Virus record (IMG/VR): IMGVR_UViG_3300017769_000077
Coordinates: 1-30,680 of that record
Source: a virus
Strand: one strand, 5' to 3'
Length of the DNA: 30,680 bases
Part shown: one piece after another, positions 3,888-25,212 of the stretch
Numbering within the stretch: the first letter of the stretch is position 1
How the letters are laid out: every line of letters begins with the position of its first letter
The notes under the pieces: model-generated
Databases searched by the model: none
What the model saw: only the letters and a program-made list of their open reading frames with translations
Told to the model about the DNA's origin: nothing
Translations under genes and position numbers: made by a program

Positions 3888-3953
3888 TAAAAACATCATA
3901 TCATGTTTTTTGTTTAAAGTCAAAAACGCTGTTACACATGTAACAATGTTATA
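3888..3953 (-). promoter_or_regulatory. Cassette A promoter with composite operator
   Basis: On the minus strand a -35 TTGACT (3918-3923) and -10 TATGAT (3895-3900) are 17 bases apart, a near-consensus sigma70 promoter pointing at the gene starting 3867. Directly upstream of the -35, at 3926-3953, lie two tandem palindromes, TATAACATTGTTACA then TGTAACAGCGTT, which recur at other minus-strand promoters of this genome. Placement upstream of the -35 would allow activation or looping as well as repression. Confidence 0.75.
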
Positions 3954-4066
3954 CCTAATAAATGAGGAGTTACCGTTAGACACAAAAAAATAATTTAAGG
4001 CATAGCTTAAAAAAATATTTTTTTTTATCCTGTGGATATTTTTTTTACAAAAAGGAAAAATTATTT

Positions 4067-4450
4067 ATGTTAAACTTGTTATTAGGACCTGTCAGTTCAA
4101 TTGTTAAAGATGCAGTTGGCGGATATGTTCAAACTAAAAAAGCCAAACTAGAACAGAAGGTTACAAAGATAAATGCGGAAACAGACATTTTAAAAAAACA
4201 AATTTCAGGTGAAATTCAATATGATGTTGAAGCTATCAAAGGTGCCAAAGATAGTTTTAAAGATGAATGGATTTTAATTTTATGGTCTATTCCAATGGTA
4301 ATGATTTGGATACCACCATTACAAGTTTACGTTGAAGCTGGATTTTTAGCTTTAAAAGACTCAGTACCTCAATGGTATTTTTATACATGGGGCGCTATTG
4401 TATCGGCTAGCTATGGCACAAAGTCGGCACTTAAATTTTTTAAAAAATAG
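4067..4450 (+). CDS. Holin, GTA 3-TM holin family-like
   Basis: 127 residues with AAAAAGGAAAAA upstream of ATG. Residues 1-60 are a charged helix (TKKAKLEQKVTKINAETDIL); then GAKDSFKDEWILILWSIPMV leads into a first membrane span and a second follows at about 98-118 (WYFYTWGAIVSASYGT). The pattern of a helical N-terminal arm, a KDEW motif, a hydrophobic pair of spans and a basic tail is that of the GTA_holin_3TM family, found mainly in alphaproteobacterial phages and gene transfer agents. It should open the inner membrane for the SleB-like lysin. It begins a plus-strand operon restarted after cassette A. Confidence 0.8.
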   Translation: MLNLLLGPVSSIVKDAVGGYVQTKKAKLEQKVTKINAETDILKKQISGEIQYDVEAIKGAKDSFKDEWILILWSIPMVMIWIPPLQVYVEAGFLALKDSVPQWYFYTWGAIVSASYGTKSALKFFKK

Positions 4451-4458
4451 GAGATAGA

Positions 4459-4560
4459 ATGAAATATTGGAATTGGTTTAAAGATTTAAAAAAACAATAT
4501 CAAATAGGTATTATTATTTTAGGTATTATAATCGTAATGTATTTTGTAGGATTACTATAA
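4459..4560 (+). CDS. 33-aa single-span membrane protein
   Basis: A 33-residue frame with an excellent ribosome site (AGGAG, 6 bases before ATG) lying exactly between the holin and the zincin gene, with one base between its stop and the next ATG. Residues 1-14 are aromatic and basic (MKYWNWFKDLKKQY), and 16-33 are a continuous hydrophobic helix (IGIIILGIIIVMYFVGLL). The layout suits a holin partner or antiholin, or a small spanin component. No named family can be assigned at this length. Confidence 0.7.
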   Translation: MKYWNWFKDLKKQYQIGIIILGIIIVMYFVGLL

Positions 4561-4914
4561 ATGAAGTGTCCTCCAAAAATTAAAGTTGGATACAAGGACA
4601 TCGCCATTGACCTTGTTCGTTCTGATTTCACAAAACAAACTGATTGTTATGGGGAATACCAACACCGAGCAAACAAGATAGAAATACAACAAGACTTAAC
4701 GCCAAACGATTTTTCTAATACACTACTCCATGAAGTGTTACATGCAGTGGTGTATGAACATTCCCTCACCGTAGATGGAAATGTATTATGTGTAGATAGC
4801 AACGAGGAAATAGTTGTTAACTCAGTAACCAATGGACTGATGACTGTCTTTAAAGACAATCCTTGGTTCCTAAAATTTTTGCAAGACAATATTCATGGCC
4901 GACAATCTTCTTGA
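4561..4914 (+). CDS. Minimal zincin metallopeptidase-like protein
   Basis: 117 residues. The motif LLHEVLHAVV at 55-64 contains H57-E58-x-x-H61, the zinc site of zincin peptidases, and Glu82/Glu83 (SNEEIVVNSV) are placed to give the third ligand. Small phage proteins of this type resemble the SprT/ImmA-like catalytic core without extra domains. It could process a phage or host protein in the cytoplasm; there is no signal peptide. It overlaps the next gene by 20 bases, and that 725-residue protein carries a second HExxH, so two metalloproteases sit side by side. The substrate is unknown. Confidence 0.75.
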   Translation: MKCPPKIKVGYKDIAIDLVRSDFTKQTDCYGEYQHRANKIEIQQDLTPNDFSNTLLHEVLHAVVYEHSLTVDGNVLCVDSNEEIVVNSVTNGLMTVFKDNPWFLKFLQDNIHGRQSS

Positions 4915-7072
4915 TTTAAGAACAATAAAAGGATTTCAGGGCGCAAGCGAAACACCTTTTACTGATAATTTATTAGGAGTAAATACAGGCAAGACTCTTA
5001 CTGGCCAAGAATTTTCTGACAATCCAATTATAAAACCCTTTCAACAATTTAATAAAGCACTAGGCACAGGACTATTAGAGACTGGTGAAAAAGCATTTAA
5101 CCTTGGAATGGGTGCAGTTAATTTACCTTTTGCTTTTGCTGGTGATACAGCAGAGGGATTGTACGAAATGCTTCCTGAAGATTGGCAAGCTAAGACATCA
5201 CAGCTTATGTATAATTCAGGGGGGAGTATGGACCCCGACGAGTTTGGTGATCAATTCTATGGTCATCTAGTTGAAGGTGTTTTTGCTTTTCCTACACTAT
5301 CAGAATTCCAACCGTGGTTCAGAGCCAATCAAGGTAAGAAGCCACCAAAAGAAATTGTCGAAGCAATTATTGAAAAGATTGGAACACAACCAAATCAATT
5401 TAGCCAACAATTATATTTATCGTACAATAAGAATATTAATAACCCTAAACAATTAGTTACAAATAAAGTTGATGCACCAGAAGGTTATTTAAAAGAGATA
5501 GCTGATTTTTATGAAGGGGCCAAGCATCAACCTAATCATCCTAAAATACAAGCATCTTACGAAACATTAATAAATGAAACATTAGCACAGTATCAACACA
5601 TGATTGATGGTGGTATTATTCCTAAAATTTATATTGGTTCTAAAGGTAAGCCAGAACCCTACGTATCATCAGGTCACATGATGAATGATGTTGCCAACAA
5701 TAAGAGTTTAAAATTTTTAAAAACTAATTTAGATGATCTTCCTCCCGATCACCCATTAGCACAACCATCAGGAATTATATTAGACGGACAAGAATTAATA
5801 ATGAATGATGTTTTTCGTATTGTGCATGATTTTTATGGTCACACACCAAATGGTTTTCAGTTTGGTCCTAAAGGTGAGTACAATGCATTTAGATCACATG
5901 CTAATATGTATAGTGATGCATCTATTCCAGCATTAGCTAATGAAACATTATTTCAAAACGCATGGGTAAATTATAATAAATCAATGCGACGTGAAGATGG
6001 TTCGGTACCTAAACCAAATGACCCTGACTTTATTCCCCAGAACGAAAGACCTTTTGCCGATCAAAAAGTAATTTTATTTGATGAGTCATTACTTAATAAA
6101 GACCCTAACTTTGAAACTGTCACTACTGATGCGATGATTTATGCAGATAATGTTACAGGCATAGATAAAAAAGTTGCAGTAGGTAATGAGTACAAAGCTA
6201 TTAGTGAACAATCTGAACCATTTAGTTTGTTAGAAAGTAATAGAAAAAACGAACTAATGCAAACAAGAGGTATCTATGAAAAATTAGATAAAAGAATGGA
6301 ATATGACTTACAAGATATAAGAGCCATTGACCCAGAATATAAACCTAACATTGTCACATTAGACCCAGAGGGTAGAGTTATTAATGCTAGATTTGTCTCA
6401 GGAAAAAAAGACCCATTAGCAAATGATGTTTATTCTTCTGCTAAAATAAATGAATTAGATGACATAGGTTTAACTGATTACGAAATTAAAAGACTAGCTA
6501 TGATATTAGCAGATGAGTATGGTTCAGGTTATAAATATTTTCAAGCTAATCCAACCCATAGAGGATTTGTTGATGCTTTAATTCAGGAAGATGCAAAAGG
6601 AAACATGTTAGGTATTAGTCAACGATTAGGTATTAATAATCAAATTGTAAAATATAAAGATGGCAAACCTAATGTAAAAATGTTGCCTAAAGATGAAATT
6701 ATGGATGTGTTACAACATGAGACTGGTCATTTAATAGGTAATATGACAAGTTATAAAAGTGTTTATGCTAATTATTTAAAAGATAATCCCAAATCTAATA
6801 TAACTAATGAAATGATTTCTATGTCAAAAGATTTACGTCCTAAAAGTTGGCAAAATAAAAATCAATTAGATTACTTAAATAAACCAGAAGAACTAATGGC
6901 AGACAGTATTAAAATGTATTTAATTAATCCTGCTAAAGCTAAAGAAATGGCACCAGAATTTGTTAAGTTTTTAAGACAAATGATAAACGATAGTAGTATA
7001 AAAAATATAATTAATCTTAGTAAAGCACCAACAAATATGATAGATGATGGTTTATTAAGTAAGTATGCATAA
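4895..7072 (+). CDS. Polyvalent protein with C-terminal metalloprotease motif
   Basis: 725 residues. Three regions can be seen. Residues 1-150 are Gly/Phe-rich and phage-structural in character. Around 305-370 is a conserved block with H311-D-F-Y-G-H316, FRSHANMYSDASIPALANET and ENERPFADQKV-type ending (NERPFADQKVIL), recalling a domain seen in large phage polyvalent proteins (HD[FY]FGH, WR[AS]H..MYS, ADQK). Residues 604-675 carry H608-E609-T-G-H612 plus E665/E666 (KPEELMADS), a gluzincin-like metallopeptidase site. Polyvalent proteins are often injected with the DNA and act on host targets early. Here that role is inference; the motifs are directly visible. The gene overlaps both neighbours and is in the plus-strand operon after the holin. 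Confidence 0.75.
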   Translation: MADNLLDLRTIKGFQGASETPFTDNLLGVNTGKTLTGQEFSDNPIIKPFQQFNKALGTGLLETGEKAFNLGMGAVNLPFAFAGDTAEGLYEMLPEDWQAKTSQLMYNSGGSMDPDEFGDQFYGHLVEGVFAFPTLSEFQPWFRANQGKKPPKEIVEAIIEKIGTQPNQFSQQLYLSYNKNINNPKQLVTNKVDAPEGYLKEIADFYEGAKHQPNHPKIQASYETLINETLAQYQHMIDGGIIPKIYIGSKGKPEPYVSSGHMMNDVANNKSLKFLKTNLDDLPPDHPLAQPSGIILDGQELIMNDVFRIVHDFYGHTPNGFQFGPKGEYNAFRSHANMYSDASIPALANETLFQNAWVNYNKSMRREDGSVPKPNDPDFIPQNERPFADQKVILFDESLLNKDPNFETVTTDAMIYADNVTGIDKKVAVGNEYKAISEQSEPFSLLESNRKNELMQTRGIYEKLDKRMEYDLQDIRAIDPEYKPNIVTLDPEGRVINARFVSGKKDPLANDVYSSAKINELDDIGLTDYEIKRLAMILADEYGSGYKYFQANPTHRGFVDALIQEDAKGNMLGISQRLGINNQIVKYKDGKPNVKMLPKDEIMDVLQHETGHLIGNMTSYKSVYANYLKDNPKSNITNEMISMSKDLRPKSWQNKNQLDYLNKPEELMADSIKMYLINPAKAKEMAPEFVKFLRQMINDSSIKNIINLSKAPTNMIDDGLLSKYA

Positions 7073-7316
7073 AAAATTTATTTGTCCTAGTTGTGAGTCA
7101 ACACATTTAAAATCAGAATTAAATGTATCACCTGATGGTGTTGGTCCTTGGGGTCATGTTCATGCTATGGATAGGTGTGGCCAATGTGATGAAACTATAC
7201 CTACTCATTTGTCACGTCGAGATAACATGACAAAAGAGAAGGCACAGCAAAATTATTTACGAGACAAACAATTAATTAATTTAATTTTTTTAGAAGGTTC
7301 TCAGGCCGTAAATTAG
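7065..7316 (+). CDS. Small zinc-ribbon protein
   Basis: 83 residues, start overlapping the previous stop by 8 bases. C7-x-x-C10 (ICPSCES) and C38-x-x-C41 (RCGQCDE) form a four-Cys zinc ribbon with a 27-residue insertion. The C-terminal half is charged helix. Such small phage ribbons may bind DNA, RNA or polymerase, but there is no specific match. Its 3' end overlaps the 3' end of int on the other strand by 41 bases, so the two are convergent. Confidence 0.7.
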   Translation: MHKKFICPSCESTHLKSELNVSPDGVGPWGHVHAMDRCGQCDETIPTHLSRRDNMTKEKAQQNYLRDKQLINLIFLEGSQAVN

Positions 7317-8247
7317 TATATCGTTTAAGCATTTTCCAATCTTTGTGACCGCTAACTAAAGCAACCTCAGGAATTTGAAAACCTTTTTCAAACAAACGAC
7401 TTATACCTTCATGTCTCATGTCATTAAAACGAAGATCATCAAACTGTAACTTAGCCATCAATCGTTGCCACTGACTCTTTAATGCTTCATAACTAGGTAA
7501 GTCATTACGCATCATTAAGTTATAAGCCTTTGTTGGTATTGGTATTTTTCTTTTACCAATATGTTTCACCGTCTTATGTTCATCTAAAATTAATAAATAA
7601 CCATTCTTTGTTTTCTCAATTTTATATTCACGGTTAATCCATTCCGCCTTACGCATACATGTTAGTATAGCAATCTTAACGCTGGACCATAACTCAGATG
7701 ACCCATGCTTACACAACATTTTTAATTCGTAAAACGATGGACGACGATCACGCGCATCATCACCTGTAACTGGCTTCTTCACCTCCACAGCAGGATTTAT
7801 TATTCGCATTTCATGTTCTTCAATAGCATGATCATAAATTTGTTTAATACGATTAACACGCTTATGAATACTGGTAGGTGCTAAATGTTTTTTACTGGTT
7901 ACGTATTGCTTAATTATTTTTTTTGTTAGATGTAAAGGTCCTTCTTTTATATCTAATAATAATCTAAAATCTTTTACCAGCTTCCTTACCATCCGTATCT
8001 GTGCTATTTCATCAGATAATTCAGGAAGTTTTTCTTTTTCATATAAGATAGCTAACTCATCAAAACATTTATTTTCTGAGTAGGTATCTAGCTTCTTACG
8101 ATCTATGTCGGTGATGGTATGATGAATAAACTTTTCCGCAATAGTTTTATCAAAAAATTTTTCAGAGATTTCCACGCCTTGCATCCTAATGCAAACATGG
8201 AAAACTTTGGTCCCATCTTTCTTAATATATTCTTTCGTATATTTCAT
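7276..8247 (-). CDS. int: Tyrosine-family site-specific integrase
   Basis: 323 residues from the ATG at 8247, which has AAAAGGAAAC upstream; the frame is open further up only because it runs through the attP tRNA remnant. The N-terminal 150 residues contain arm-binding and core-binding helices (SAM-like, residues about 60-150). Catalytic residues: R199 (LTCMRKAEW), K225 (DEHKTVKH), N275-D-M-R278 (the usual first His of HxxR is Asn here), H301 (VSGHKDW) and nucleophile Tyr310 (KRYTNL). It should recombine attP with the host tRNA-Phe gene. The promoter with an operator lies beyond attP at 8380-8408, so integration would separate it from the gene. Confidence 0.92.
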   Translation of the reverse strand: MKYTKEYIKKDGTKVFHVCIRMQGVEISEKFFDKTIAEKFIHHTITDIDRKKLDTYSENKCFDELAILYEKEKLPELSDEIAQIRMVRKLVKDFRLLLDIKEGPLHLTKKIIKQYVTSKKHLAPTSIHKRVNRIKQIYDHAIEEHEMRIINPAVEVKKPVTGDDARDRRPSFYELKMLCKHGSSELWSSVKIAILTCMRKAEWINREYKIEKTKNGYLLILDEHKTVKHIGKRKIPIPTKAYNLMMRNDLPSYEALKSQWQRLMAKLQFDDLRFNDMRHEGISRLFEKGFQIPEVALVSGHKDWKMLKRYTNLRPENLLKKLN

Positions 8248-8316
8248 TTTGTTTCCTTTTGTGTTAATACCGAGAAAAAAGATGTCTAAGCAGGATACTC
8301 GCCCCTCGCCATGAGA

Positions 8317-8361
8317 CTGAAAATCCTCGTGTCGGTGGTTCGATTCCACCCTTGGGCACCA
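8317..8361 (+). other. attP core: 3' half of tRNA-Phe
   Basis: From the anticodon loop C-T-GAA-A-A (8317-8323) the sequence continues through the 3' anticodon stem, variable loop, a perfect T-arm (GGTGG-TTCGATT-CCACC, 8334-8350), acceptor strand CTTGGGC and ACCA at 8358-8361. The 5' half, D-arm and the expected GCCCAAG are absent. A tRNA 3' half next to int with phage genes on both sides is the standard look of attP rather than attL/attR. Anticodon GAA gives Phe. A crossover in the anticodon or T-arm region would rebuild the host tRNA. Confidence 0.85.
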
Positions 8362-8379
8362 CTTTTCTAGGTATTATCT

Positions 8380-8425
8380 ACAATATAAAAATGTTCTATG
8401 TTTGTCAAACCATATAACAATGTTA
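8380..8425 (-). promoter_or_regulatory. int promoter with single operator, upstream of attP
   Basis: On the minus strand TTGACA (8403-8408) and TATTGT (8380-8385) are 17 bases apart and point at int. Immediately upstream of the -35 is GGTAACATTGTTATATGG (8411-8428 region), the same TAACA-T-TGTTA palindrome found at the accessory cassettes. The transcript would cross attP antisense to the tRNA half before reaching int. Confidence 0.6.
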
Positions 8426-8455
8426 CCATTTCAATACGATTTGTGAAATATCGGG

Positions 8456-8512
8456 AAAAAAAGCAGGGGATAGTTAGATTAGGACTTAGTTATCTACTGG
8501 GATTACCCCCTG
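8456..8512. terminator. Possible bidirectional terminator after the early operon
   Basis: CAGGGG (8464-8469) and CCCCTG (8507-8512) are inverted repeats around a 37-base loop. On the minus strand the distal arm is followed by CTTTTTTT, and on the plus strand by TTTTTC. The 6-bp GC stem is good but the loop is long, so termination is only possible, not certain. It would separate the early operon from the int promoter. Confidence 0.4.
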
Positions 8513-8724: not shown

Positions 8725-8830
8725 TTTTTACCATTTCTTGTATGTCGTATTTCATTGTTGGCCACGTATAGCCTAACTCCAAACAGATATTGAGATACCT
8801 GTGGTATAATATTAATTCTTGATTGCTCAA
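8717..8830 (-). CDS. 37-aa coupled small protein (TTG start)
   Basis: A 37-residue frame that fills the gap between two certain genes. Its TTG overlaps the stop of the zinc-finger gene (TTGA) and its stop overlaps the DUF3310 GTG start by 8 bases, a pattern of translational coupling. The peptide (SNQELILYHRYLNICLELGY then TWPTMKYDIQEMVKSE) is helical and amphipathic. No ATG is available for this frame except internally. The tight overlaps on both sides are the main evidence; function unknown. Confidence 0.5.
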   Translation of the reverse strand: MSNQELILYHRYLNICLELGYTWPTMKYDIQEMVKSE

Positions 8831-12795: not shown

Positions 12796-12841
12796 TAAAC
12801 AATTAATTATATGAAATAGATTTGTCAAGTTATTTTGACAA
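12796..12841 (-). promoter_or_regulatory. Early promoter region with repressor-type inverted repeat
   Basis: TTGTCAA (12822-12828) and TTGACAA (12835-12841) form an inverted repeat. On the minus strand TTGACA at 12823-12828 gives a -35, and TATAAT follows 11 bases later or TAATTG 17 bases later, so the exact -10 is unclear. The inverted repeat adjoins ATGTAAAG, also present near the repressor promoter (13678-13684), suggesting a shared operator. Confidence 0.5.
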
Positions 12842-12848
12842 TGTAAAG

Positions 12849-13616
12849 TTATATGGATATTTGTTCTACTTTATAATCTTCATCAAATAAGGTAGCTGTA
12901 GTTATTCGTGGATAAATAGCATTAAATTCACAATCTTTAATTAATGCAAACTCATTAACCCACATATCTTTGTATGACACCATTCTGCCGTTTTCTTTAA
13001 ATTTTAAATCGTCTCTATTTATGTGTTTGCTTTTCCACCATTGAAACACGCAAGTACCATCTTTGTTAAATTCTAATACTTGACCATAATAAAACATATT
13101 GTTTGCTTTTCTTTGAACAAATACATCAACATTAATTAATCTTTCTTTTAATTTTTTATCATTAACCCAATTTTTGTGATCAAAGTCTATAAGAGAAAAT
13201 GCAGGAATATTATTACCATCATAAACACCCCAAAAAAATGCTTTTTGAGATGGTTTTAAAAAAGCATTATTTAAAAAATAAATAACTTCAATAGGTTCAT
13301 CATAATTTCTAGGTACAAAATGAGATTTTTTATAATCAAACTTTTCAATTATTTCTGTTTTAACAATATTATCACTAATAATTTGATTTATTTTAATATC
13401 TAAAACTCTAGCTAATTCTTGAAGTTGTGAAAACTTTACATCAGTAGTGCCTTTTAAAATTGTTGCAATAGTTTGATGAGACATTGAACCATAACCCATA
13501 GGTGCATCAGCAGTAAGCACAGATAATGTTCTGCCTGCTGGAGAATGACCTTTTTCTTTAACTAACGCATTTAAGTTAATTAAATATTTTTTTTGATCTA
13601 ACAGTTTCATTTGCAT
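12849..13616 (-). CDS. XRE-family repressor (CI-like), non-S24 C terminus
   Basis: 255 residues; GAGG precedes ATG. The N-terminal part contains an XRE HTH (SHQTIATILKGTTDVKFSQL and ELARVLDIKINQI at about 47-83). The C-terminal 150 residues (VDVFVQRKANNMFYYGQVLE, CVFQWWKSKHINRDDLKF) are probably a sensing or dimer domain; they do not show the Ser-Lys S24 self-cleavage signature. Its gene diverges from the replication operon and lies before the early operon promoter, the expected place for the lysogeny repressor. Induction would need another mechanism than LexA-like autolysis, if this reading is right. Confidence 0.8.
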   Translation of the reverse strand: MQMKLLDQKKYLINLNALVKEKGHSPAGRTLSVLTADAPMGYGSMSHQTIATILKGTTDVKFSQLQELARVLDIKINQIISDNIVKTEIIEKFDYKKSHFVPRNYDEPIEVIYFLNNAFLKPSQKAFFWGVYDGNNIPAFSLIDFDHKNWVNDKKLKERLINVDVFVQRKANNMFYYGQVLEFNKDGTCVFQWWKSKHINRDDLKFKENGRMVSYKDMWVNEFALIKDCEFNAIYPRITTATLFDEDYKVEQISI

Positions 13617-13784
13617 AAAAAACTACCTCAATTAATAAATGTTTACAAACATTTTATTTATAGACTCTTTTTTACAATGTAAAGATAATTTGACAATTTT
13701 ATTTAAAAATATATTTTGTCAAATATTGGATAAGATTTTCCCACTTTTCCAACAATAATTAAATTAGGACTTAGAAAGTTTAAC
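13617..13784. promoter_or_regulatory. Divergent switch region with palindromic operators
   Basis: Between repressor and LexA-like gene lie AATGTTT-AC-AAACATT (13638-13653), TTTACA-A-TGTAAA (13671-13683) and TTTGACA ... TGTCAAA (13689-13695, 13717-13723). TTGACA at 13690-13695 may serve a plus-strand promoter. The minus-strand repressor promoter may use TTTACA with TATAAA 15 bases on. These palindromes are likely repressor or LexA-like sites. Confidence 0.55.
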
Positions 13785-14027
13785 GTGAAATGCCCAAACT
13801 GTGATCATAATATGCAAAAAATACCCTTAACAAAGAATATGAAAAGAGTTTTATTGTTTATTACTGATTTTATACAATCCAATTCTTCTGCACCTAGTTT
13901 TGAGGAAATTAAAGATGGTGCAGGATTTAAAAATAAATCTGAAGTTGCAAGATACATTATGTGTTTAAAAGATAGAGGATGGTTAACCTATCAACGCTAT
14001 AAAAAAAGGACAATACGAATTCTATGA
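13785..14027 (+). CDS. LexA-like winged helix with CxxC, possible Cro/regulator
   Basis: 80 residues from a GTG start. C3-x-x-C6 at the N terminus is followed by a domain (LTKNMKRVLLFITDFIQSNS, SFEEIKDGAGFKNKSEVARY, LKDRGWL) matching the winged helix of LexA: helix, PSFEEI, recognition helix KSEVARYI, then wing. No autoprotease domain is present. Being the first gene opposite the repressor, it could act as the Cro-like partner or as a replication-gene regulator. The next gene overlaps by 4 bases. Confidence 0.7.
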   Translation: MKCPNCDHNMQKIPLTKNMKRVLLFITDFIQSNSSAPSFEEIKDGAGFKNKSEVARYIMCLKDRGWLTYQRYKKRTIRIL

Positions 14028-14827: not shown

Positions 14828-15336
14828 AAAGAAAAAAGAAAAAAGTTGAGTTATCTGATTTTGGTTCTAGCCAACTAATTAAAGATGATAAACATAATGT
14901 TTTAATTCGTCCCGTTGATAACGCTAAATTTCACGTCGTCTATCCAAGCCAAGGACAACGACACTTACAACGTATCGACGATCACATCCTCGTAGTCTAC
15001 AAACGTAGAAAATTATTAAATCCAATCAACAGAGAAAGTAACGACAAACGATATTTAGCTGGCGCTCGAATTAGAGATTTAGCCGACAGGTCAAACATTC
15101 AGGAGAGAGTAACACCAAATTATACCAGCTTCCTAGCTATGGTACATTCAGGTAAAGAAAGTATTACCGTCGATAAAATAGATACTTACCAGCAGTTACA
15201 TGATGCTTTACGTTTTGCTATACATCATCAAAGTATTATTTGGGATTGTTGTGTTAATGATCAATCAGTAGGACGTAAGATAAATAAATTAAGAGAAGGT
15301 TTAGATACTCTTATAGAGTATTTTAAAATAAAGTAG
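14821..15336 (+). CDS. DUF6456-like protein, possible late regulator
   Basis: 171 residues, starting 7 bases before the initiator stop. The C-terminal half (RYLAGARIRDLADRSNIQER, VTPNY, then CCVNDQSVGRKINKLREGLD) follows the layout of DUF6456: an A-G-x-R-x-R helix, a R-V-T patch and a C-terminal helix-turn-helix ending in LxxLxxYF. DUF6456 occurs mainly in alphaproteobacterial genomes and phages, often with regulatory context. The N terminus is lysine-rich (KRKKKKVELSDFG). Being last in the replication operon and before the late genes, it may switch on late transcription. Confidence 0.55.
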   Translation: MVKRKKKKVELSDFGSSQLIKDDKHNVLIRPVDNAKFHVVYPSQGQRHLQRIDDHILVVYKRRKLLNPINRESNDKRYLAGARIRDLADRSNIQERVTPNYTSFLAMVHSGKESITVDKIDTYQQLHDALRFAIHHQSIIWDCCVNDQSVGRKINKLREGLDTLIEYFKIK

Positions 15337-15350
15337 GGCCCGAAGGCCCT
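15335..15350 (-). terminator. Terminator of cassette B with TTCG tetraloop
   Basis: Reading the minus strand, AGGGCC-TTCG-GGCCCT is a 6-bp GC-rich stem closed by the very stable TTCG loop, followed by ACTTTATTTT. It lies 60 bases past the last cassette B stop. On the plus strand no T-run follows, so the minus direction is preferred. Confidence 0.7.
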
Positions 15351-15409: not shown

Positions 15410-15628
15410 TCACTTATTATCTTTATCCAATCCAACATTAATAACTCCATCTAATCGTTTTAATTGTTCATCTTCAGGAAGGGAGTCAAAATCAGCAGGA
15501 AATGAAATACCTTGTTGGGTTTTAAGCATACGCTTTTTCCAAGCTATTTCATCCGCTTTAGTTCTTCCAAGCATATTACCTAATGATGCTATTGTTGATG
15601 CCAATTTAAGGCTATTTATACTTGTCAT
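15410..15628 (-). CDS. Cassette B gene 2, unknown small protein
   Basis: 72 residues from ATG at 15628, six bases after GAGGTG; the ATG overlaps the previous stop as TAATG. Residues 4-22 (INSLKLASTIASLGNMLGR) are a weakly hydrophobic helix, then a charged region with PADFDSLPEDEQLKRLD. It may be a small membrane-associated or helical partner of gene 1. No family recognised. Confidence 0.65.
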   Translation of the reverse strand: MTSINSLKLASTIASLGNMLGRTKADEIAWKKRMLKTQQGISFPADFDSLPEDEQLKRLDGVINVGLDKDNK

Positions 15629-16056
15629 TATGACCACCTCGCTTCAGCATACATCGGATGTTGATGTGCCAGTTCGTAAGCTATTTGATCTTTGATACTA
15701 TCTAAGATTTTGTACCAACCTTTTTTGGTACTATCACCTTCACATGATTGATACATGTAACATTCCAAACTTTTTAGTAATTGTGCTTTATTGCTACTAT
15801 TCATTAATGAATTAGCTTGGGCAATTACTTTTTCAGTTTTAATATCAAAATATAATTCTTCAGCATCATCTGGATAACGCTGTTTTAAACTATATCTATT
15901 CCAAGTTAATAAATTTTTAACATAAGAAAATGGGTCCTTACTTGCATTTGATTTATGTTTTTCAACACCTTTGTATTCTCTACCATGTATTCCAGCTAAC
16001 TTAACAGCCTTTAATACATCGCCTAATACTTTTTCATTTACTTGATATGCACTCAT
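15628..16056 (-). CDS. Cassette B gene 1, unknown protein
   Basis: 142 residues, first gene of cassette B, with AAAAAGGAG before ATG in the shared leader (GGAGAAAACCG). The protein is helical, slightly basic and rich in Tyr/Lys (YVKNLLTWNRYSLKQRYPDD, SLECYMYQSCEGDSTKKGWY). Two Cys lie close together at about 108-114. No family was recognised. Its promoter holds the composite operator, so it belongs to the same regulatory group as cassettes A and D. Confidence 0.7.
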   Translation of the reverse strand: MSAYQVNEKVLGDVLKAVKLAGIHGREYKGVEKHKSNASKDPFSYVKNLLTWNRYSLKQRYPDDAEELYFDIKTEKVIAQANSLMNSSNKAQLLKSLECYMYQSCEGDSTKKGWYKILDSIKDQIAYELAHQHPMYAEARWS

Positions 16057-16079
16057 CGGTTTTCTCCTTTTTGTTTATA

Positions 16080-16115
16080 AACACTGTTATAGTGTATAAC
16101 AATGTTATATGTCAA
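16080..16115 (-). promoter_or_regulatory. Cassette B promoter with composite operator inside the spacer
   Basis: On the minus strand TTGACA (16110-16115) and TATAAC (16086-16091) are 18 bases apart. The spacer and -10 are filled by the tandem palindromes TATAACATTGTTATA and TATAACAGTGTT (16080-16109), 18 bases centre to centre. A protein bound here would block polymerase, so repression is expected. The layout is almost base-for-base the same at 25177-25212. Confidence 0.75.
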
Positions 16116-17619: not shown

Positions 17620-17630
17620 ACAGGAGATAT

Positions 17631-17822: not shown

Positions 17823-19100
17823 TTGCCTACTTATACTATTCCGTACAAACCAAGGAAACATCAAGCACAGTTACATCGTAAACTAAAGCGCTTTAACGTC
17901 ATTCCTGCACATAGAAGATTTGGCAAGTCCTACTTTTGTTTGGCAGAGACATTAAAGAAGTGTTTTGAGTGCCAGCTTCCAAACCCTCGGTATTATATAA
18001 TATCGGCTACGTATTCTCAGGTAAAAAAAATACATTGGGATACGCTAAAATTTTTAACAAAAAATATTAAGGGAACTACGTATCACGAGACAGAACTTCG
18101 TTGTGATATGGTAGGGGGGAGAAGAATACAACTATTAGGGGCCGACGGAAATAGCGTTGACTCTATTCGTGGAATTTTCGCGGACGGTGTTATTCTTGAT
18201 GAGTGTCAGTTACTCCATAAAGATTTATTAAATAAGGTCTTACGGCCAGCTTTAGTCGATAGACACCAGTTGGATAAAAAATCGGGATGGCTAATCGCCA
18301 TCGGGACCCCTTCGGGGCATAATTTTTTTTATGACCTTTATATGAATAATAAAGGCCACAAAGATTGGTTTGTTAAAAAGTACACCGTAGAAGATACAAA
18401 AATAATACCAAAAGACGAGTTGGACAATCTAAAGAATATGATGTCCCCAGAAGAATATGATACCGAGTTTATGGTAGATTTTGACGCTGGAGTCGTTGGC
18501 GGTATTTACACAAAATCAATGCAGATGGTGGAAAATGAAAATAGAATTACTAATGTTCCTCACATCGCAGAGTTACCCGTTACCACATTTTCCGATATTG
18601 GATTTCGTGATGCTTTTAGCATTGTTTTTATTCAAAAGGTAGGTTCGGCTATACATGTTATTGATCATTTAGAAGGGTCAGGAGAGAGTTTAGAATACTA
18701 CGCTAATAAACTAAAAGAACTCCCTTATACTTATGATAATCACTTTGCTGGGCATGACATAGTGGTTACTGAGTTAGGGTCAGGAAAAAGCAGGCAGGAG
18801 ATAGCATCTAATTTAGGATGGTTTATACAACCTGTTCCCAAACTTAAAATAGAGGACGGAATAAACTCTTTACGGATGTCCTTAAAACGATGTTATTTTA
18901 ATAAAGACAAAACAGACTACCTCATTAATTGTTTAAAACAATACCGATGGAAAAAAAACCAACTAGGAGAGCAAACGTCAACACCTCATCACGGACCTGA
19001 AAGTAATTCATGTGATGCAATGAGGTATATGAGTATAGGCTTGAACGAGTCAAGCGACTGGTCCAGTAAACTTAATTACGGGCCTTCTGGGATAGTTTAG
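17823..19100 (+). CDS. terL: Terminase large subunit
   Basis: 425 residues from a TTG start; no ATG or GTG lies between the upstream in-frame stop (17793) and this point, and the ribosome site is weak. R31-R-F-G-K-S36 is the Walker A of phage terminases and GVILD126E127 is the Walker B; IGTPSG is the coupling motif. The RNase H-like nuclease has D258 (FSDIGF), D312 (GHDIVV) and D398 (SNSCDAMRY). It pumps and cuts DNA into the capsid. Length is typical for compact TerL. The last 29 bases overlap the 3' end of the opposing HTH gene. Confidence 0.92.
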   Translation: MPTYTIPYKPRKHQAQLHRKLKRFNVIPAHRRFGKSYFCLAETLKKCFECQLPNPRYYIISATYSQVKKIHWDTLKFLTKNIKGTTYHETELRCDMVGGRRIQLLGADGNSVDSIRGIFADGVILDECQLLHKDLLNKVLRPALVDRHQLDKKSGWLIAIGTPSGHNFFYDLYMNNKGHKDWFVKKYTVEDTKIIPKDELDNLKNMMSPEEYDTEFMVDFDAGVVGGIYTKSMQMVENENRITNVPHIAELPVTTFSDIGFRDAFSIVFIQKVGSAIHVIDHLEGSGESLEYYANKLKELPYTYDNHFAGHDIVVTELGSGKSRQEIASNLGWFIQPVPKLKIEDGINSLRMSLKRCYFNKDKTDYLINCLKQYRWKKNQLGEQTSTPHHGPESNSCDAMRYMSIGLNESSDWSSKLNYGPSGIV

Positions 19101-19308
19101 AAACCTTTTTTTCTAAAAAGGCAATACGTTTATCTTTTTCAACGATTTGTTCTTTGAGTCCAAGACCCCAAGCCAACTGGTTATTCACGGGCCTACGGCC
19201 ATTGAAATAATTACCGACGGCTGTTCGGGTAATACCGACTTCCTTCGCCAGCTTCCCTTGGGATATACCAAGAAATTTTAGTAATTTTCTAAATTGAAAT
19301 TTAGTCAT
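19072..19308 (-). CDS. Small HTH regulator with C-terminal coiled coil (cassette C)
   Basis: 78 residues on the opposite strand between TerL and portal. Residues 13-40 (LGISQGKLAKEVGITRTAVG then NYFNGRRPV) form a Cro/CI-type HTH, with recognition helix ITRTAVGNYFNG. Residues 48-73 (GLKEQIVEKDKRIAFLEKKV) are a coiled coil that would drive dimerisation, as expected for a protein binding palindromes. The ATG has no ribosome site and overlaps the operator at 19309-19335, so leaderless translation and autoregulation are possible. It is the best candidate to control cassettes A, B, D and int. Confidence 0.75.
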   Translation of the reverse strand: MTKFQFRKLLKFLGISQGKLAKEVGITRTAVGNYFNGRRPVNNQLAWGLGLKEQIVEKDKRIAFLEKKVSKLSQKARN

Positions 19309-19335
19309 ATAACACTGTTACACTACAACAATATA
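19309..19335. promoter_or_regulatory. Degenerate composite operator between HTH gene and portal
   Basis: The plus strand reads AACACTGTTACA-CTACAACAATATA; on the minus strand TGTAACAGTGTT matches the second half of the composite operator exactly as in cassette B, while the first half is reduced (TATATTGTTG). The 34-base gap between the two divergent ATGs is filled by it. It may regulate both the HTH gene and portal. Confidence 0.6.
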
Positions 19336-19342
19336 ATAATCA

Positions 19343-21358
19343 ATGAAATTAACCAAAAAAAAAGAACAAGAACTAAAAGGCACTATTACACGCGAAATAA
19401 CTGATGCTTTAGGCTATCAAAACGGTAAACTGGTTCAAGAACGTTCCCTAGCCTTAGATTATTACAATTCAGAGCCATTTGGTAATGAAGTAGAAGGCAG
19501 ATCACAAGTTATAAGTAGTGATGTACTAGAAGCCGTAGAAAGTGTGCTTCCAAGTTTATTACGTATCTTTACCGCAGGAGACGATATTGTAAAATTCGAG
19601 CCTGTAGGTCCTGAAGATGAAGAAGCATCTAAGCAAGCCACGGAATATATTAATCATATAATATTTAAAGAAAATGACGGCTGGAAAGTATTTTATACGT
19701 GGTTCAAAGATGCATTAATTCAAAAAAACGGGTTTATAAAGCATTATTATAAATACGAGGATGAATTCCTCAAAGAGTCTTATAAAGGCCTTACAGAGAT
19801 AGAATATCAGGCTTTATTAATAGATGATGCTGTTGAAGTAGTTAACGTTGAAGAAGTCATTGAAGATAAAATGGTGATGACAGAGCAAGGTGAAATGGCA
19901 GACACCCAAACTGTATTTAACGTTGATGTTCGACGTAAATCATCATCAGGTAAAATTTGCATTGAAAACGTTCCTCCCGAAGAAATGCTTGTTTCTAAAC
20001 GTACCAAAACTTTAGCTGATGCACCTTACATTGCACACCGATTAAAAAAAACGGTTAGTGATTTAATAGGTGAAGGGTACGATAGAAAAAAAATAGAAGA
20101 TATACCAAACTACGCAAACTCAACATGGAATGAGGAGTCGCTAAGTCGTAACTTATTTAATGAAGAAAGTTACATGGACGAAAGCGCTGACCCTTCTATG
20201 CGCGAAGTTTTATATTATGAAAATTACATAAGAACAGATATTGATAATGATGGTGTAGCAGAATTATTAAAAGTTTGTACGGTAGGAGATACAAACGAAA
20301 TTTTACATGTAGAAGAAATATCATATATTCCTTTTTCTACTATTACACCGATTATTAATCCGCATCGTTTATTTGGAATGAGTGTTGCAGACCTCGTTAT
20401 GGACATCCAGCAAATAAAAAGTGTACTTCTACGTCAGTGTCTTGACAACGCGTTCCTTATGAACAACTCACGCGTATTGGCTGTTGACTCTCAAGTAAAT
20501 CTTGATGACTTACTACAATCGCGCGCAGGCAACATTGTAAGAGTTAAATCACCTAATGCTGTTGTTCCATTACAAGCACAAAACTTTATGCAAGAAGGTT
20601 TGGCAATGATGGAGAAAGTTGATCAAATAAAAGAACAACGTTCAGGCATTAGTAGGATGCAACAAGGCTTGGACCCTAACACTATACAAAAATCACATAC
20701 AACAGCAACAGGTGTTAAAGAAGCAATGGCATCGGCTGGTCAACGTATTGAAACAATTGCTAGAGTGTTTGCCGAAACAGGTATTAAAGATTTAATGAAT
20801 TGTTTGTTAAAATTAACAACACAATATCAAGACTATAAAAAAATAATAAAAATTAGAAACAATTACGTTCCAATAGACCCAAGAGAGTGGAAAAATAAAT
20901 TTAATTTAACAATAAACGTGGGGTTAGGAACAGGAAGCCATGAGCAACGGCTTCAAATATTAGGTCAAATTTTAGGCATCCAAGAAAAAATAATGATGTC
21001 AGGTAGTAAATTAGCAAATGAACAAAACATCTACAATACGCTAGAGCGCATGGTTCATAATGCTGGGTTTAAATCCCCGCAGGAATTTTTTACAAATCCC
21101 GAAACACTTCCTCCTGAACAGCCTAAAGACCCAATGCAAGAAAACCCGTTGCTTATTGCTACACAACAACAAATACAAGCTGACCGAGAAAAGAACATTG
21201 CTGAATTGCAATTGAAAAAAGAAAAGATGGAAGCTGAACTTGAATTAAAAAAACAAGAACAAGTAGCCGAGTTAGAATTAAAAAAACAAGAAATGCTAGC
21301 AGAGTTACAAATGGAAAGAGAAAAGATGAATAGAAAAGCACAGATGGGAACTTTATAA
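19343..21358 (+). CDS. Portal protein
   Basis: 671 residues. The N-terminal part (ITREITDALGYQNGKLVQER, EGRSQVISSDVLEAVESVLP, SLLRIFTAGDDIVKFEPV) is the classic start of P22/SU10-type podovirus portals; GLDPNTIQKSHTTATGVKEA is the usual stem/wing marker. Residues 600-671 are a Lys/Glu/Gln coiled coil (barrel-like end). Twelve copies form the DNA entry ring that docks TerL. No clear ribosome site precedes the ATG, which sits just after the HTH operator. Confidence 0.9.
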   Translation: MKLTKKKEQELKGTITREITDALGYQNGKLVQERSLALDYYNSEPFGNEVEGRSQVISSDVLEAVESVLPSLLRIFTAGDDIVKFEPVGPEDEEASKQATEYINHIIFKENDGWKVFYTWFKDALIQKNGFIKHYYKYEDEFLKESYKGLTEIEYQALLIDDAVEVVNVEEVIEDKMVMTEQGEMADTQTVFNVDVRRKSSSGKICIENVPPEEMLVSKRTKTLADAPYIAHRLKKTVSDLIGEGYDRKKIEDIPNYANSTWNEESLSRNLFNEESYMDESADPSMREVLYYENYIRTDIDNDGVAELLKVCTVGDTNEILHVEEISYIPFSTITPIINPHRLFGMSVADLVMDIQQIKSVLLRQCLDNAFLMNNSRVLAVDSQVNLDDLLQSRAGNIVRVKSPNAVVPLQAQNFMQEGLAMMEKVDQIKEQRSGISRMQQGLDPNTIQKSHTTATGVKEAMASAGQRIETIARVFAETGIKDLMNCLLKLTTQYQDYKKIIKIRNNYVPIDPREWKNKFNLTINVGLGTGSHEQRLQILGQILGIQEKIMMSGSKLANEQNIYNTLERMVHNAGFKSPQEFFTNPETLPPEQPKDPMQENPLLIATQQQIQADREKNIAELQLKKEKMEAELELKKQEQVAELELKKQEMLAELQMEREKMNRKAQMGTL

Positions 21359-22308
21359 TGGTACAGTTTACACCTTTTGGCGAGTCATCTTTATTTTCTA
21401 CTATTGCTAGTGGAAGTGGTACACCATTAGGTGCAGTCCCTATGGATTTTGCAACAGCAACTCCTTTTAAATTTGATACAGACCCAATGAAACCTGAACC
21501 AGATACACCTGAAAGTGATTTTGATATGGGAGTATTTTGTTCGATGCCAGCTAATGCCAATCATCCAATGTGTGTTAATGAAAATAATACTTCTGATGAT
21601 GAAGAAAGAAGAATTAAAATAGAAGGTACAGACAGATATACTACAATGGATAATTTTATACCTACTGATGAAGAAGTAGCAAATATGACTAACAAAGAAT
21701 ATTTAGCAAACTTACAACAAAGAGGATGGTTAAAAAATTCTATGTTAGGTGTTTTGCCAAGTAAAGGTTCAACATACGATTTAAAATCTGGTCAAATAAT
21801 GAACCCTTATTTCACTTTAGCATTTGGTAAAGGACAAGAAGCTAGACGACAAAAATTAATACAAGAATTACAAAATAGAGGTTTACTTGATGCTATGCAA
21901 ACAGGTGGCGATATTAAAATTAATTTAAACAATGCAAATAGAGGTAGGTCTAAATCAGGTTTATTAATGATAGATGAAATAGCAAAATTTGGAGTTAAAA
22001 ATCCTGAATTTGATCAAAGATTGTATGATGATAATAATACTGAAAAAAGAGTTAAGCGTTACAAAGATACTAAGGGTACGGAACCAGATACAGTAATAAC
22101 TACAGACTCAGTAACTAAATACAAAAAAGAATACGATAAATTAAAGAAAAAACTTAAAAATAAAGAATTAAATCTTGGTCAATTTGCAAATCAATACAGA
22201 AAAGATACTGGATATTTTTCACCAGCACAAGTAAGTAAAAGAGAAGATTCATACGCACAACCGCAAGGTAAAAAAGGCACTTACTCTTACAGGGCAAAAG
22301 GTAGATGA
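21358..22308 (+). CDS. Unknown structural-region protein
   Basis: 316 residues. Its ATG abuts the portal stop (TAATG). The N terminus is Ser/Thr/Pro/Asp-rich and disordered, followed by a KEYLANLQQRGWLKNSMLGV motif and a basic helical part (KKEYDKLKKKLKNKELNLGQ) that ends in a Gly/Lys/Arg tail. Sitting between portal and scaffold genes it may be a minor head or ejected protein. No family recognised. Confidence 0.7.
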   Translation: MVQFTPFGESSLFSTIASGSGTPLGAVPMDFATATPFKFDTDPMKPEPDTPESDFDMGVFCSMPANANHPMCVNENNTSDDEERRIKIEGTDRYTTMDNFIPTDEEVANMTNKEYLANLQQRGWLKNSMLGVLPSKGSTYDLKSGQIMNPYFTLAFGKGQEARRQKLIQELQNRGLLDAMQTGGDIKINLNNANRGRSKSGLLMIDEIAKFGVKNPEFDQRLYDDNNTEKRVKRYKDTKGTEPDTVITTDSVTKYKKEYDKLKKKLKNKELNLGQFANQYRKDTGYFSPAQVSKREDSYAQPQGKKGTYSYRAKGR

Positions 22309-22538
22309 CCCCAGAACAAGAAATACAACGATCTAATGACGCTAAAGCAATTATAGAAAATCCGCTTTATCAAGAGTCTTATAAAGAATTACGAAAAGAG
22401 TTAATTAATGAATTATTAGATACTCCCCTTCGTGATACGGAAGCAAGAGAAAAAATTTACATGATGGTAAAAATGCTTGACTCCGTACAAACCCGAATAC
22501 AATCCATTATGGAAACGGGAACAATACTTAAAGAATAG
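22305..22538 (+). CDS. Small head-module protein, unknown
   Basis: 77 residues overlapping the previous gene by 4 bases. Entirely helical (IQRSNDAKAIIENPLYQESY, LINELLDTPLRDTEAREKIY, MMVKMLDSVQTRIQSIMETG). The layout of a short N-P-[LM]-[FY] motif followed by a helical hairpin is common for small proteins next to the scaffold in marine podoviruses. It might help capsid assembly. Function unknown. Confidence 0.7.
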   Translation: MTPEQEIQRSNDAKAIIENPLYQESYKELRKELINELLDTPLRDTEAREKIYMMVKMLDSVQTRIQSIMETGTILKE

Positions 22539-22545
22539 GTAAAAT

Positions 22546-23544
22546 ATGGCTGACAATCCTACACAGGAAACAGCGGTTACTGACGACGCTACGGTTCAAG
22601 AACCAGTAGCAAAAACAAACTTATTAGGTGAATTCGAGAACTTTATAACCGCAGAGAACGAAGCACCAACACAATCGGCTGAACAGGACGCGAAAGCACA
22701 ACCAGACGCAACCGAAAGTGAACCAACTCCCGACGATTTGGAATTAGAGGAAATTGACGACAACTCCCCAGCAGAAGCTAATGAGGAACTTTATTCAGTC
22801 AAAGTAAATGGCTTAGAAGAAAAAGTTAACCTTAACGAACTTCTTGCAGGATATAGTAGGCAAAAAGATTACTCGACTAAAACAAATCAGTTAGCAGAAG
22901 AACGCAGAGGTTTAGAAACCGAACGAACTAAAACGCAAGCTGAAATGGAAGCGGTCAAAAAAGAACGCGATGACTACGCAGTAAAACTAAAATCTTTTAT
23001 TAAACAAGACACAGAAGAAAAGATTGATTGGGACCAATTGTATAGAGACGACCCGATTGAATACGTTCGACAAAAAGCTGAGTCTGATAAAAAGAAAGAA
23101 GTACGTCAACAAGCGGAAGCAGAACTAAAGAAAATAGAAGCAAAACAAAAAGCAGAGACAGAAGATAAATACAAACAGTATGTTACTTCCCAGTCCGCTT
23201 TGTTACAGGAAAAAGTACCTGAGTATGCTGACCCCGTAAAAGGTGATAAGCTAAAATTAGGTGTAAAGAATTATTTAAATGATATTGGATTTAGTGATCA
23301 AGAATTGAGCATGTTAACCGATCATCGTACCGTCATGGTAGCGATAGAAGGTATGAAATATAATCAATTAAAGAAAGCTAAGTTAGATGGAAAAAAAGTA
23401 AACAAGGTTCCTAAAGTTTCTAAAGCTGGTGTTCCTACTTCTAAAGAAGATGTTAATTACGAAACTCGTCGCACAAGTTTTAAACGTGCTAAATCTGGCA
23501 AGTCAGAGGACATGTTAGATGCGTTTATGAACGTAATCAACTAA
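22546..23544 (+). CDS. Capsid scaffolding protein
   Basis: 332 residues. N-terminal 90 residues are acidic and disordered (EAPTQSAEQDAKAQPDATES), followed by LYSVKVNGLEEKVNLNELLA with GYSRQKDYSTKTNQLAEER, a motif typical of phage scaffold proteins. Residues 120-215 are a long coiled coil, and the C terminus is basic (RRTSFKRAKSGKSEDMLDAF), which is the expected capsid-binding end. Direct position before the major capsid gene agrees. Confidence 0.88.
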   Translation: MADNPTQETAVTDDATVQEPVAKTNLLGEFENFITAENEAPTQSAEQDAKAQPDATESEPTPDDLELEEIDDNSPAEANEELYSVKVNGLEEKVNLNELLAGYSRQKDYSTKTNQLAEERRGLETERTKTQAEMEAVKKERDDYAVKLKSFIKQDTEEKIDWDQLYRDDPIEYVRQKAESDKKKEVRQQAEAELKKIEAKQKAETEDKYKQYVTSQSALLQEKVPEYADPVKGDKLKLGVKNYLNDIGFSDQELSMLTDHRTVMVAIEGMKYNQLKKAKLDGKKVNKVPKVSKAGVPTSKEDVNYETRRTSFKRAKSGKSEDMLDAFMNVIN

Positions 23545-23562
23545 CTATATAGGAGAAAATAT

Positions 23563-24528
23563 ATGGCACAGCCAACAAATACTTTTGACTCTTATGACAG
23601 TGTAGGAAATAGAGAAGATTTATCAAATCTTATTTCTATGGTAGCGGTAACTGAAACACCGTTCCTATCTTCGTTAAAGACTCAGAATATTAATTCCACA
23701 TACCATGAATGGCAGACACTAGCTTTAAGTAGTGTTGCTGATAACAAAGTAATAGAGGGTGACGAAGCAACTCTAGACGCTTCTCTAACTACCGCTAGAG
23801 TAGGTAACTACACGCAGATTTCTGATAAAACTGTTGTAGTATCAAACACTTTAGATGCGGTTAACAGAGCAGGGAGGAAGAAGGAGAAAGCCTTCCAAAT
23901 GTTACATAAAAGCAAAGAGTTGAAAAAAGACATGGAACACGCAATGATAGGTCTAAACAATGGCCAAGTTGCTGGTAACGGTTCAACAGCAAGAGAATTA
24001 GCTTCTTGTCAAAGTTGGATAGCTACTAACGATGTCTTTAATTCATCTGGTTCACCAAATGGTGCTTCACCAACTGGTAATGGAACTAATGCAAGAACTG
24101 ACTCAGGTACAGCACAAGCATTTACAGAAGCAATGTTTACAAGTGCTTTAGACTTAATTTTTGAGTCTGGTGGTAATCCTGACACTGTTCATGTTGGAAG
24201 TTTTAACAAAAGAAAAATGAACGCTTTTAATGGTAGAGCAGACGCTACTAGAAGTGTTGTCGATAACAACGGTACTATCAATGATTACTTTGATGTTTAC
24301 CGAGGTGACTACGGCACATTAAAAGTTATTCCAAACAGATTAGTAAGATCAAAAGATTGTCTAATCCTAGAGTCTGATAAATGGGCGATTGGTTATTTAA
24401 GACCATTCACTACACAAGATTTATCAGTAACAGGTGACTCTCAAAAATCACAACTAATCGTTGAGTACACACTTGTTAGTGAAAATGAAAAAGCTAGTGG
24501 TGGTGTATTTGATTTAACTACTTCGTAA
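23563..24528 (+). CDS. Major capsid protein, SU10/DUF5309-like
   Basis: 321 residues with AGGAG eight bases before ATG. The sequence LISMVAVTETPFLSSLKTQN, VIEGDEATLDASLTTARVGN, YTQISDKTVVVSNTLDAVNR and the C-terminal VEYTLVSENEKASGGVFDL match the SU10-type (DUF5309) major capsid family, an HK97-fold coat protein. Many copies build the head. The gene is followed at once by a strong terminator (24542-24565), so it may be expressed more than its neighbours downstream. Confidence 0.92.
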   Translation: MAQPTNTFDSYDSVGNREDLSNLISMVAVTETPFLSSLKTQNINSTYHEWQTLALSSVADNKVIEGDEATLDASLTTARVGNYTQISDKTVVVSNTLDAVNRAGRKKEKAFQMLHKSKELKKDMEHAMIGLNNGQVAGNGSTARELASCQSWIATNDVFNSSGSPNGASPTGNGTNARTDSGTAQAFTEAMFTSALDLIFESGGNPDTVHVGSFNKRKMNAFNGRADATRSVVDNNGTINDYFDVYRGDYGTLKVIPNRLVRSKDCLILESDKWAIGYLRPFTTQDLSVTGDSQKSQLIVEYTLVSENEKASGGVFDLTTS

Positions 24529-24541
24529 ATTTTAATTAAGG

Positions 24542-24565
24542 GGAGGGGATTATTCCCCTCCTTTT
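24542..24565 (+). terminator. Strong intrinsic terminator after the capsid gene
   Basis: GGAGGGGA-TTAT-TCCCCTCC is a perfect 8-bp GC-rich stem followed by TTTTATTT. It lies 14 bases after the capsid stop. On the minus strand it also ends cassette D. Its core GGGGATTATTCCCC recurs at 24985-24998. Confidence 0.85.
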
Positions 24566-24567
24566 AT

Positions 24568-24960
24568 TTATATGTGATTAACTTCCCAACAAGCATCACC
24601 ATTAATAGTTTCTGCAAGAAATTTATGTTGGTTTAAAACTCTATTAAGTGGGTCACTTATCCAGTGATGATGTTCGTTATCCCAAAGAAAACCACCCATA
24701 CCTTGGGATTGTAAATAAAAAGAAGCATCGTCACCTGATTTATTGTTTGGGTGACAAACAAAAAATGTTTTTGTTTCTGTATTATTAAAAATTTCAGAAA
24801 TAACTTCACCTTTAATATAAAAAGAAATATTAACATCGTGTTGTCCGTCACCATCATATTTTTCAACACGAACATTTGAAACTTTATCATTAAAAGTATT
24901 GTTTTTAAATTGATCTTTAACAAACTTAATTAATATTTTTTGTAATTTTGATTTAGTCAT
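24568..24960 (-). CDS. Cassette D gene 2, unknown protein
   Basis: 130 residues; AAAAAGGAT precedes ATG. The first part is a basic helix (KSKLQKILIKFVKDQFKNNT), then beta strands (NVRVEKYDGDGQHDVNISFY, KTFFVCHPNNKSGDDASFYL) and a His/Trp-rich segment (FLWDNEHHHWISDP) that might bind metal. Another frame on the same strand is only a shadow. No family recognised. It lies downstream of a 55-residue gene, with its own ribosome site. Confidence 0.68.
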   Translation of the reverse strand: MTKSKLQKILIKFVKDQFKNNTFNDKVSNVRVEKYDGDGQHDVNISFYIKGEVISEIFNNTETKTFFVCHPNNKSGDDASFYLQSQGMGGFLWDNEHHHWISDPLNRVLNQHKFLAETINGDACWEVNHI

Positions 24961-24984
24961 TGTTTTATCCTTTTTGTTTTAAAC

Positions 24985-24998
24985 GGGGATTATTCCCC
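24985..24998. repeat. Second copy of the GGGGATTATTCCCC hairpin
   Basis: The same 14 bases occur at 24545-24558. Here the hairpin covers the stop codon of the 55-residue gene and lies before the ribosome site of the next one. It could attenuate expression between the two, or be a trace of how the cassette was built. Confidence 0.65.
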
Positions 24999-25157
24999 AC
25001 CTTTGAATTGATTAAATAAATCTTCTTGCATTTTTTTTTGTTTCTTCCATTCATCAAAAGAAATTGTTTCAAGGCCATTAGCTTTTCTTGAATACATTTC
25101 TTCATCGTAGTTATCTTGTTCAGTTTGACCAACCCAAACATTATTTACATAAGCCAT
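24990..25157 (-). CDS. Cassette D gene 1, 55-aa protein
   Basis: 55 residues (MAYVNNVWVGQTEQDNYDEE start), with AAAAGGAG five bases before ATG; a good ribosome site and a promoter directly upstream make it a firm gene despite its size. It contains a short acidic middle and a helical end (FDEWKKQKKMQEDLFNQFKG). It is the first gene of cassette D, so it is made whenever the operator is free. Function unknown. Confidence 0.7.
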   Translation of the reverse strand: MAYVNNVWVGQTEQDNYDEEMYSRKANGLETISFDEWKKQKKMQEDLFNQFKGGE

Positions 25158-25176
25158 AATTACTCCTTTTGTTTAT

Positions 25177-25212
25177 AACGATGTTATACCCTATAACAAT
25201 GTTATATGTCAA
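25177..25212 (-). promoter_or_regulatory. Cassette D promoter with composite operator inside the spacer
   Basis: On the minus strand TTGACA (25207-25212), 18-base spacer, TATAAC (25183-25188). Tandem palindromes TATAACATTGTTATA and TATAACATCGTTATA fill the spacer and -10. Only the central triplet (GGG against CAC) and a few bases differ from cassette B, though the genes behind are unrelated. Confidence 0.78.

Follow-up and report, generated by a model that had tools for sequence, protein, structure and literature searches.

A shared operator set at accessory cassettes, int and a solitary HTH gene in a phage family, and its candidate regulator

Introduction

Morons, the accessory genes of phages, are usually treated as independent units. 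The DNA studied here raises the question of whether several of them, together with the integrase gene, could instead answer to one phage regulator, and if so, which protein that would be. The window, by which we mean the IMG/VR contig in its full length of 30,680 bases (33% G+C), is probably a phage genome fragment. It encodes a portal protein (phrog_1216), a major head protein (phrog_1328), an Sf6-like small terminase, an ERF recombinase, and a tyrosine integrase. Its TerL is about 42% identical to the TerL of cultured pelagiphages such as HTVC106P, and this similarity, the sole pointer to a host, suggests SAR11. A prophage search with a TerL alignment found no relative.

For comparison, about 80 loci of the same family, one of uncultured marine phages, were gathered, many of them overlapping; ten contigs, not counting the window, were examined one gene at a time. 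The relatives' contigs are metagenome fragments and are partly redundant.

Results and Discussion

A palindrome at five minus-strand promoters

An earlier note, made from the sequence, had described one palindrome at five separate places. The exact site, TAACANTGTTA, indeed occurs five times in the window, at 3941, 8415, 16097, 19310, and 25194, compared with a mean of 0.14 and a maximum of 2 in 1,000 dinucleotide shuffles. All five copies fall in intergenic DNA, which makes up 6.2% of the window, and the reversed control pattern has no match there. We also scanned the window with a matrix of 17 positions that had been trained on the relatives only, with the window left out. Six sites within the five loci took the top ranks (scores of 23.2 to 15.1); a weak int promoter site came next, at 11.2, and no intragenic site scored above 9.4. 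Equally good matches inside genes, which the note had named as the result that would speak against a regulon, were therefore absent.

The finer description given in the note holds in part. All five sites lie at minus-strand promoters, but their position is not uniform, as the dyads are inside the promoter at cassettes B and D and at the HTH gene, and upstream of the −35 element at cassette A and int. Tandem pairs are clear at A (17 bp apart) and at B and D (18 bp), where the second copies have one or two mismatches, but not at the HTH gene, with only a very weak partner, or at int, with one strong site and a weak one 29 bp away. The near-identity of B and D over 36 bases amounts to 31 of 36 without gaps, including 22 contiguous identical bases that comprise the −35 element and the first operator. 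All of the regulon sites are symmetric dyads. We also considered whether the dyad stems from an RNA hairpin and rejected this on inspection, since a stem of no more than 4 bp, closing a 3-base loop, could form. The cassettes and their control elements are as follows.

3924-3934 and 3941-3951, minus strand: operator pair of cassette A, with the same layout in G002, G003, and G004
3918-3923 (TTGACT) and 3895-3900 (TATGAT), spacer 17, minus strand: promoter A, with the operator pair upstream
3054..3867, minus strand: cassette A, three small genes of unknown function
16079-16089 and 16097-16107, minus strand: operator pair of cassette B, kept in G001-G004, G006, G009, and G011
16110-16115 (TTGACA) and 16086-16091 (TATAAC), spacer 18, minus strand: promoter B, with the operator pair inside
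15410..16056, minus strand: cassette B, genes of 142 and 75 aa of unknown function; cargo varies among relatives
25176-25186 and 25194-25204, minus strand: operator pair of cassette D, kept in G001, G002, G005, G007, G009, and G010
25207-25212 (TTGACA) and 25183-25188 (TATAAC), spacer 18, minus strand: promoter D, with the operator pair inside
24568..25157, minus strand: cassette D, genes of 130 and about 55 aa of unknown function

Fixed slots with exchangeable cargo

From one relative to the next, the genes behind the sites vary, but the sites keep their slots. Slot A is kept by the lysis region, slot B between replication and terminase genes, and slot D after the major head gene; the sites before int and before the HTH gene are kept as well. 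Every occupied slot has a site (28/28: D 10/10, B 14/14, A 4/4), and neither of the two empty ones does, since D in G003 and A in G001 lack both cargo and site. No empty case of slot B was seen. The three cassettes thus have the marks of morons: they lie between conserved genes, have their own promoters, and, for A and D, are missing from a relative.

The cargo comprises many unrelated families, and Pfam, PHROGs, and NCBIfam assigned no function to most of it. A Mom-like gene of 251 to 252 aa (phrog_1384, E = 2.4e-15) recurs in slot B (L014, L043, L047, L055, and G004) and may, under the shared operator, counter restriction by modifying DNA. Leaderless transcripts seem to serve several of the cargo genes in D and B, whose start codons lie on the dyad or beside it. 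Morons carry a terminator of their own; near the cargo ends, at about 15336-15350 and 24538-24570, G+C-rich inverted repeats are visible.

The control region of int also contains the putative attachment site:

7276..8248, minus strand: tyrosine integrase (phrog_1, 1.4e-28; Pfam Phage_integrase), likely start ATG at 8248
8415..8425, minus strand: int operator, centred 12 bp upstream of −35, with the same offset in G002, G004, and G006
8403-8408 (−35, TTGACA) and 8380-8385 (−10, TATTGT), minus strand: int promoter
8313..8361, plus strand: putative attP core, a tRNA gene 3′ end with a Phe-like anticodon (GAA)

As read from the sequence, the tRNA end lies between the int promoter-operator and the int start, so integration would split int from its promoter, and any control of int by the regulon would then count while the phage is circular and not yet integrated. 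A search of bacterial genomes for the host with the attP core gave no exact match. G002, G004, and G006 have a different tRNA 3′ end at this place (CAT anticodon) and still conserve the int promoter-operator; the putative attachment site has changed among relatives while the promoter-operator stayed.

The 78-aa HTH protein as candidate regulator

One of the five sites stands at the start of a gene for a small DNA-binding protein:

19072..19308, minus strand: 78-aa HTH protein (Cro/CI-type), the proposed regulator (Pfam HTH_3, 2e-07)
19310..19320, minus strand: operator at the HTH start, over the presumed −10 (19315-19320), with the presumed −35 at 19338-19343

This gene is the lone minus-strand gene between terL and portal, and it is solitary in all contigs that show the locus. 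Every contig spanning the terL-portal junction has it, each time with a TAAC-N3-GTTA dyad directly before its ATG; among relatives, the arms TAAC and GTTA of this dyad are fixed, and the centre triplet takes many forms. The HTH mRNA is probably leaderless, to judge from this arrangement. The region of the recognition helix is nearly invariant between HTH proteins that are 54 to 56% identical. A structure model (mean pLDDT 71) has the four HTH helices and one long C-terminal helix. The closest annotated matches are the N-termini of CI/C2 proteins from HK620- and P22-like phages (35 to 38% identity). Compared by sequence profile, the protein had no match among solved structures; the fold matches of the model were weak (best E 0.08) and included the Aca1 and Aca2 structures, and no NCBIfam Aca family matched.

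We consider it likely that the HTH protein is an autoregulated factor acting on all of the sites, by occlusion at some and by activation or modulation at others, and apart from the immunity repressor. Dimers of the protein would recognise TATAAC-N3-GTTATA dyads, in many cases as pairs of dimers 17 to 18 bp apart, and TATAACATTGTTATA would be a candidate DNA partner. Assuming the −10 elements given above, the predicted dyad centres are at about −23 and −5 in B and D and at about −7 in the HTH gene. Protein bound at these promoters would cover the −35/−10 spacer, the −10 element and start, or both, and would block polymerase. The B, D, and HTH units would thus fire from near-consensus promoters once the DNA enters a protein-free cell and shut off as the protein accumulates.

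At the other two units, the geometry differs. The predicted centres at A are about −58 and −41, and the one at int is about −47, each in four genomes. Lambda CI has a site near −41 that fits activation from OR2 at PRM, and by this likeness the A-type layout points to a dual-function regulator. On this geometric argument, the protein would more likely activate or otherwise modulate transcription at A and int, as lambda CI does from OR2.

We lean against, while holding it quite possible, a version in which the same protein simply represses every target, A and int included. The layouts at B, D, and the HTH gene fit repression, activators do not classically bind at −47, and a second, weak int site, centred at 8391 in the −35/−10 spacer, is found in the window and G001. 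However, that weak site is not retained in G002, G004, and G006, whereas the −58/−41 layout of A is the same in its four genomes and partly recurs in the repressor-less relatives described below, at their early-left promoter (a dyad at about −59 and, by reading, a half-site near −42).

The early locus and two further candidates

The earlier note had named two candidate regulators, the 78-aa HTH protein and a 255-aa repressor. The early locus that encodes the latter also contains a third DNA-binding protein:

12849-13616, minus strand: 255-aa presumed immunity repressor (weak HTH_26 match)
13785-14027: 80-aa LexA-like winged-helix protein (LexA_DNA_bind match, 5.8e-08)

The presumed repressor is exchanged or missing among relatives. 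The locus encodes a 255-aa protein in the window, G001, and G011, one of 218 to 222 aa in L014 and L078, one of 269 aa in L092, and none in G002, G004, G006, and L043, and the regulon is unchanged across all of these types. That the early-locus proteins are repressors is itself taken from their position and, for the 255-aa protein, from its weak HTH match. By eye, they have a common C-terminal stretch, YP(R/S/I)(I/T); there is a hint that their N-terminal DNA-binding domains have been exchanged.

An ordinary prophage-repressor regulon, in which the 255-aa protein binds all of the dispersed sites, would have a precedent in SP-beta (PMC10516654). Palindromes like TTTACANTGTAAA surround its gene (12836-12846, 13672-13682, and 13691-13701) and have the same ACANTGT core as the regulon sites, the main difference being at the fourth position out from the centre, so that cross-binding is conceivable. 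Still, the relatives without the gene keep the regulon, those with different early-locus proteins have the same sites elsewhere, and the gene's own region in the window has TTTACA-type sites upstream and none of the TAACA type. The TTTACANTGTAAA-like palindromes are probably operators of the 255-aa protein itself. On this evidence, the 255-aa protein does not appear to be the regulator, and we regard such a regulon as unlikely. Of the note's two candidates, this leaves the HTH protein favoured.

The repressor-less relatives lack the TTTACA-type sites and carry two or three of the TAACA type in their early control region. Our preferred mechanism, with the HTH protein as regulator, would accordingly have two parts here: a regulon separate from the exchangeable immunity repressor, and sites that occupy the early control region when that repressor is absent. 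The early regions of G002, G004, and G006 (L064, L069, and L072) also show a conserved GTTC-N11-GAAC inverted repeat near the regulon sites and repeated GAACAT/ATGTTC words.

Also unlikely as the regulator is the 80-aa protein. Besides its LexA-type domain, it is found by the early region in every contig showing the locus, including those without a repressor, but the 330 bases upstream of its gene hold no TAACA-type site in the window lineage, a DnaD-like gene that follows suggests a replication role, and the protein is only about 45% identical between lineages with identical sites.

Specificity of the pattern

Among 59 distinct 41-base site contexts, two proved truly intragenic on reading; a script flags more, as its ORFs are extended upstream through the operators. 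A scan of 2.9 million viral contigs with TTGACATRTAACANTGTTA gave 48 stretches, all but six of them in this phage family, and these six are three distinct sequences, each intragenic. The least probable explanation, that a host transcription factor binds the sites and lets the accessory genes follow host physiology, is opposed by this confinement to the family, by the lack of an exact site in three pelagiphage isolates (whose hosts may differ), and by the constant presence of a site at the phage HTH gene's own start. Conservation and family specificity give strong support to the idea of a shared, phage-specific operator set for the cassettes, int, and the lone HTH gene.

A wide search for sites at HTH-like starts (GTAACNNNGTTATATGAC) returned many contigs without family genes, and these were treated as chance. 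In G001 (27812-27822) and G002 (near 24623), an extra site directly precedes the start of a small zinc-ribbon gene, which is on the structural strand and apparently leaderless; the window has no site at that place.

What a dedicated regulator would mean

We put at about even the chances of a broader reading, drawn from the comparison of sequences, in which the autoregulated 78-aa protein is a dedicated moron regulator with fixed plug-in slots, int among its targets, and a takeover of the early region upon loss of the repressor. Accessory genes of unrelated kinds would seem to have entered one regulated framework, distinct from immunity. If this reading is true, heteroimmune relatives would share and cross-regulate one accessory regulon, and a phage already resident in a cell could shut down the accessory genes of such a relative on its arrival. 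The shared site would also locate the accessory, possibly counter-defence, genes of the family from sequence alone, and the relatives would offer a natural series for the possible replacement of a lost immunity repressor by an accessory regulator.

Comparison with known systems

In action, the closest analogues appear to be the Aca autorepressors, and in layout the regulon resembles SP-beta and L5. Aca proteins are small HTH proteins that repress from inverted repeats within a strong core promoter (PMC9410906). The 78-aa protein is likewise small, with one or more inverted repeats in its own near-consensus core promoter and predicted autorepression. Aca genes, however, lie within the acr operon that they control, whereas here a solitary gene would serve several distant cassettes and int, and no known acr gene was recognised in the regulon. 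In SP-beta, MrpR binds a conserved 15-bp element, SPBRE, in the promoters of several dispersed units (PMC10516654). One phage protein, a conserved element, and dispersed promoters are common to both systems, with binding predicted in ours, but MrpR is a lysogeny master repressor with a tyrosine-recombinase fold, and the candidate here is a 78-aa HTH_3 protein encoded apart from the immunity locus. L5 also has many dispersed intergenic sites for one phage protein; these are asymmetric 13-mers oriented with transcription, at which a monomeric immunity repressor halts elongation (PMC9283540), unlike the symmetric promoter dyads of the window.

With lambda CI and P22 C2, the candidate shares an N-terminal Cro/CI HTH_3 domain and paired operators; like lambda's PRM, promoter A also has a site near −41. 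CI and C2 repress early promoters and maintain lysogeny; the early region of the window has no regulon site, and that of the repressor-less relatives does. CI and C2 have a C-terminal S24-type domain for oligomerisation and autocleavage, which the 78-aa protein lacks in a model of moderate confidence, and they differ from it in that the HTH gene sits inside the structural module and its targets are accessory genes and int. Cassettes A, B, and D resemble morons in location, promoters, and patchy occurrence, but depart from the usual ones in that their promoters have a common phage-specific operator and near-identical sequence in front of unrelated cargo.

The regulon thus lacks one defining trait of each of the three nearest systems: the acr operon of Aca, the recombinase-fold master repressor of SP-beta, and the asymmetric sites of L5. 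The earlier note's word "unusual" for a shared operator set is fair; "unprecedented" would be too strong, as the general kind is known from SP-beta and L5. We found no paper describing such a regulon among the open-access papers searched, and what seems to be new is that a solitary regulator outside immunity is combined with int and several exchangeable cassettes.
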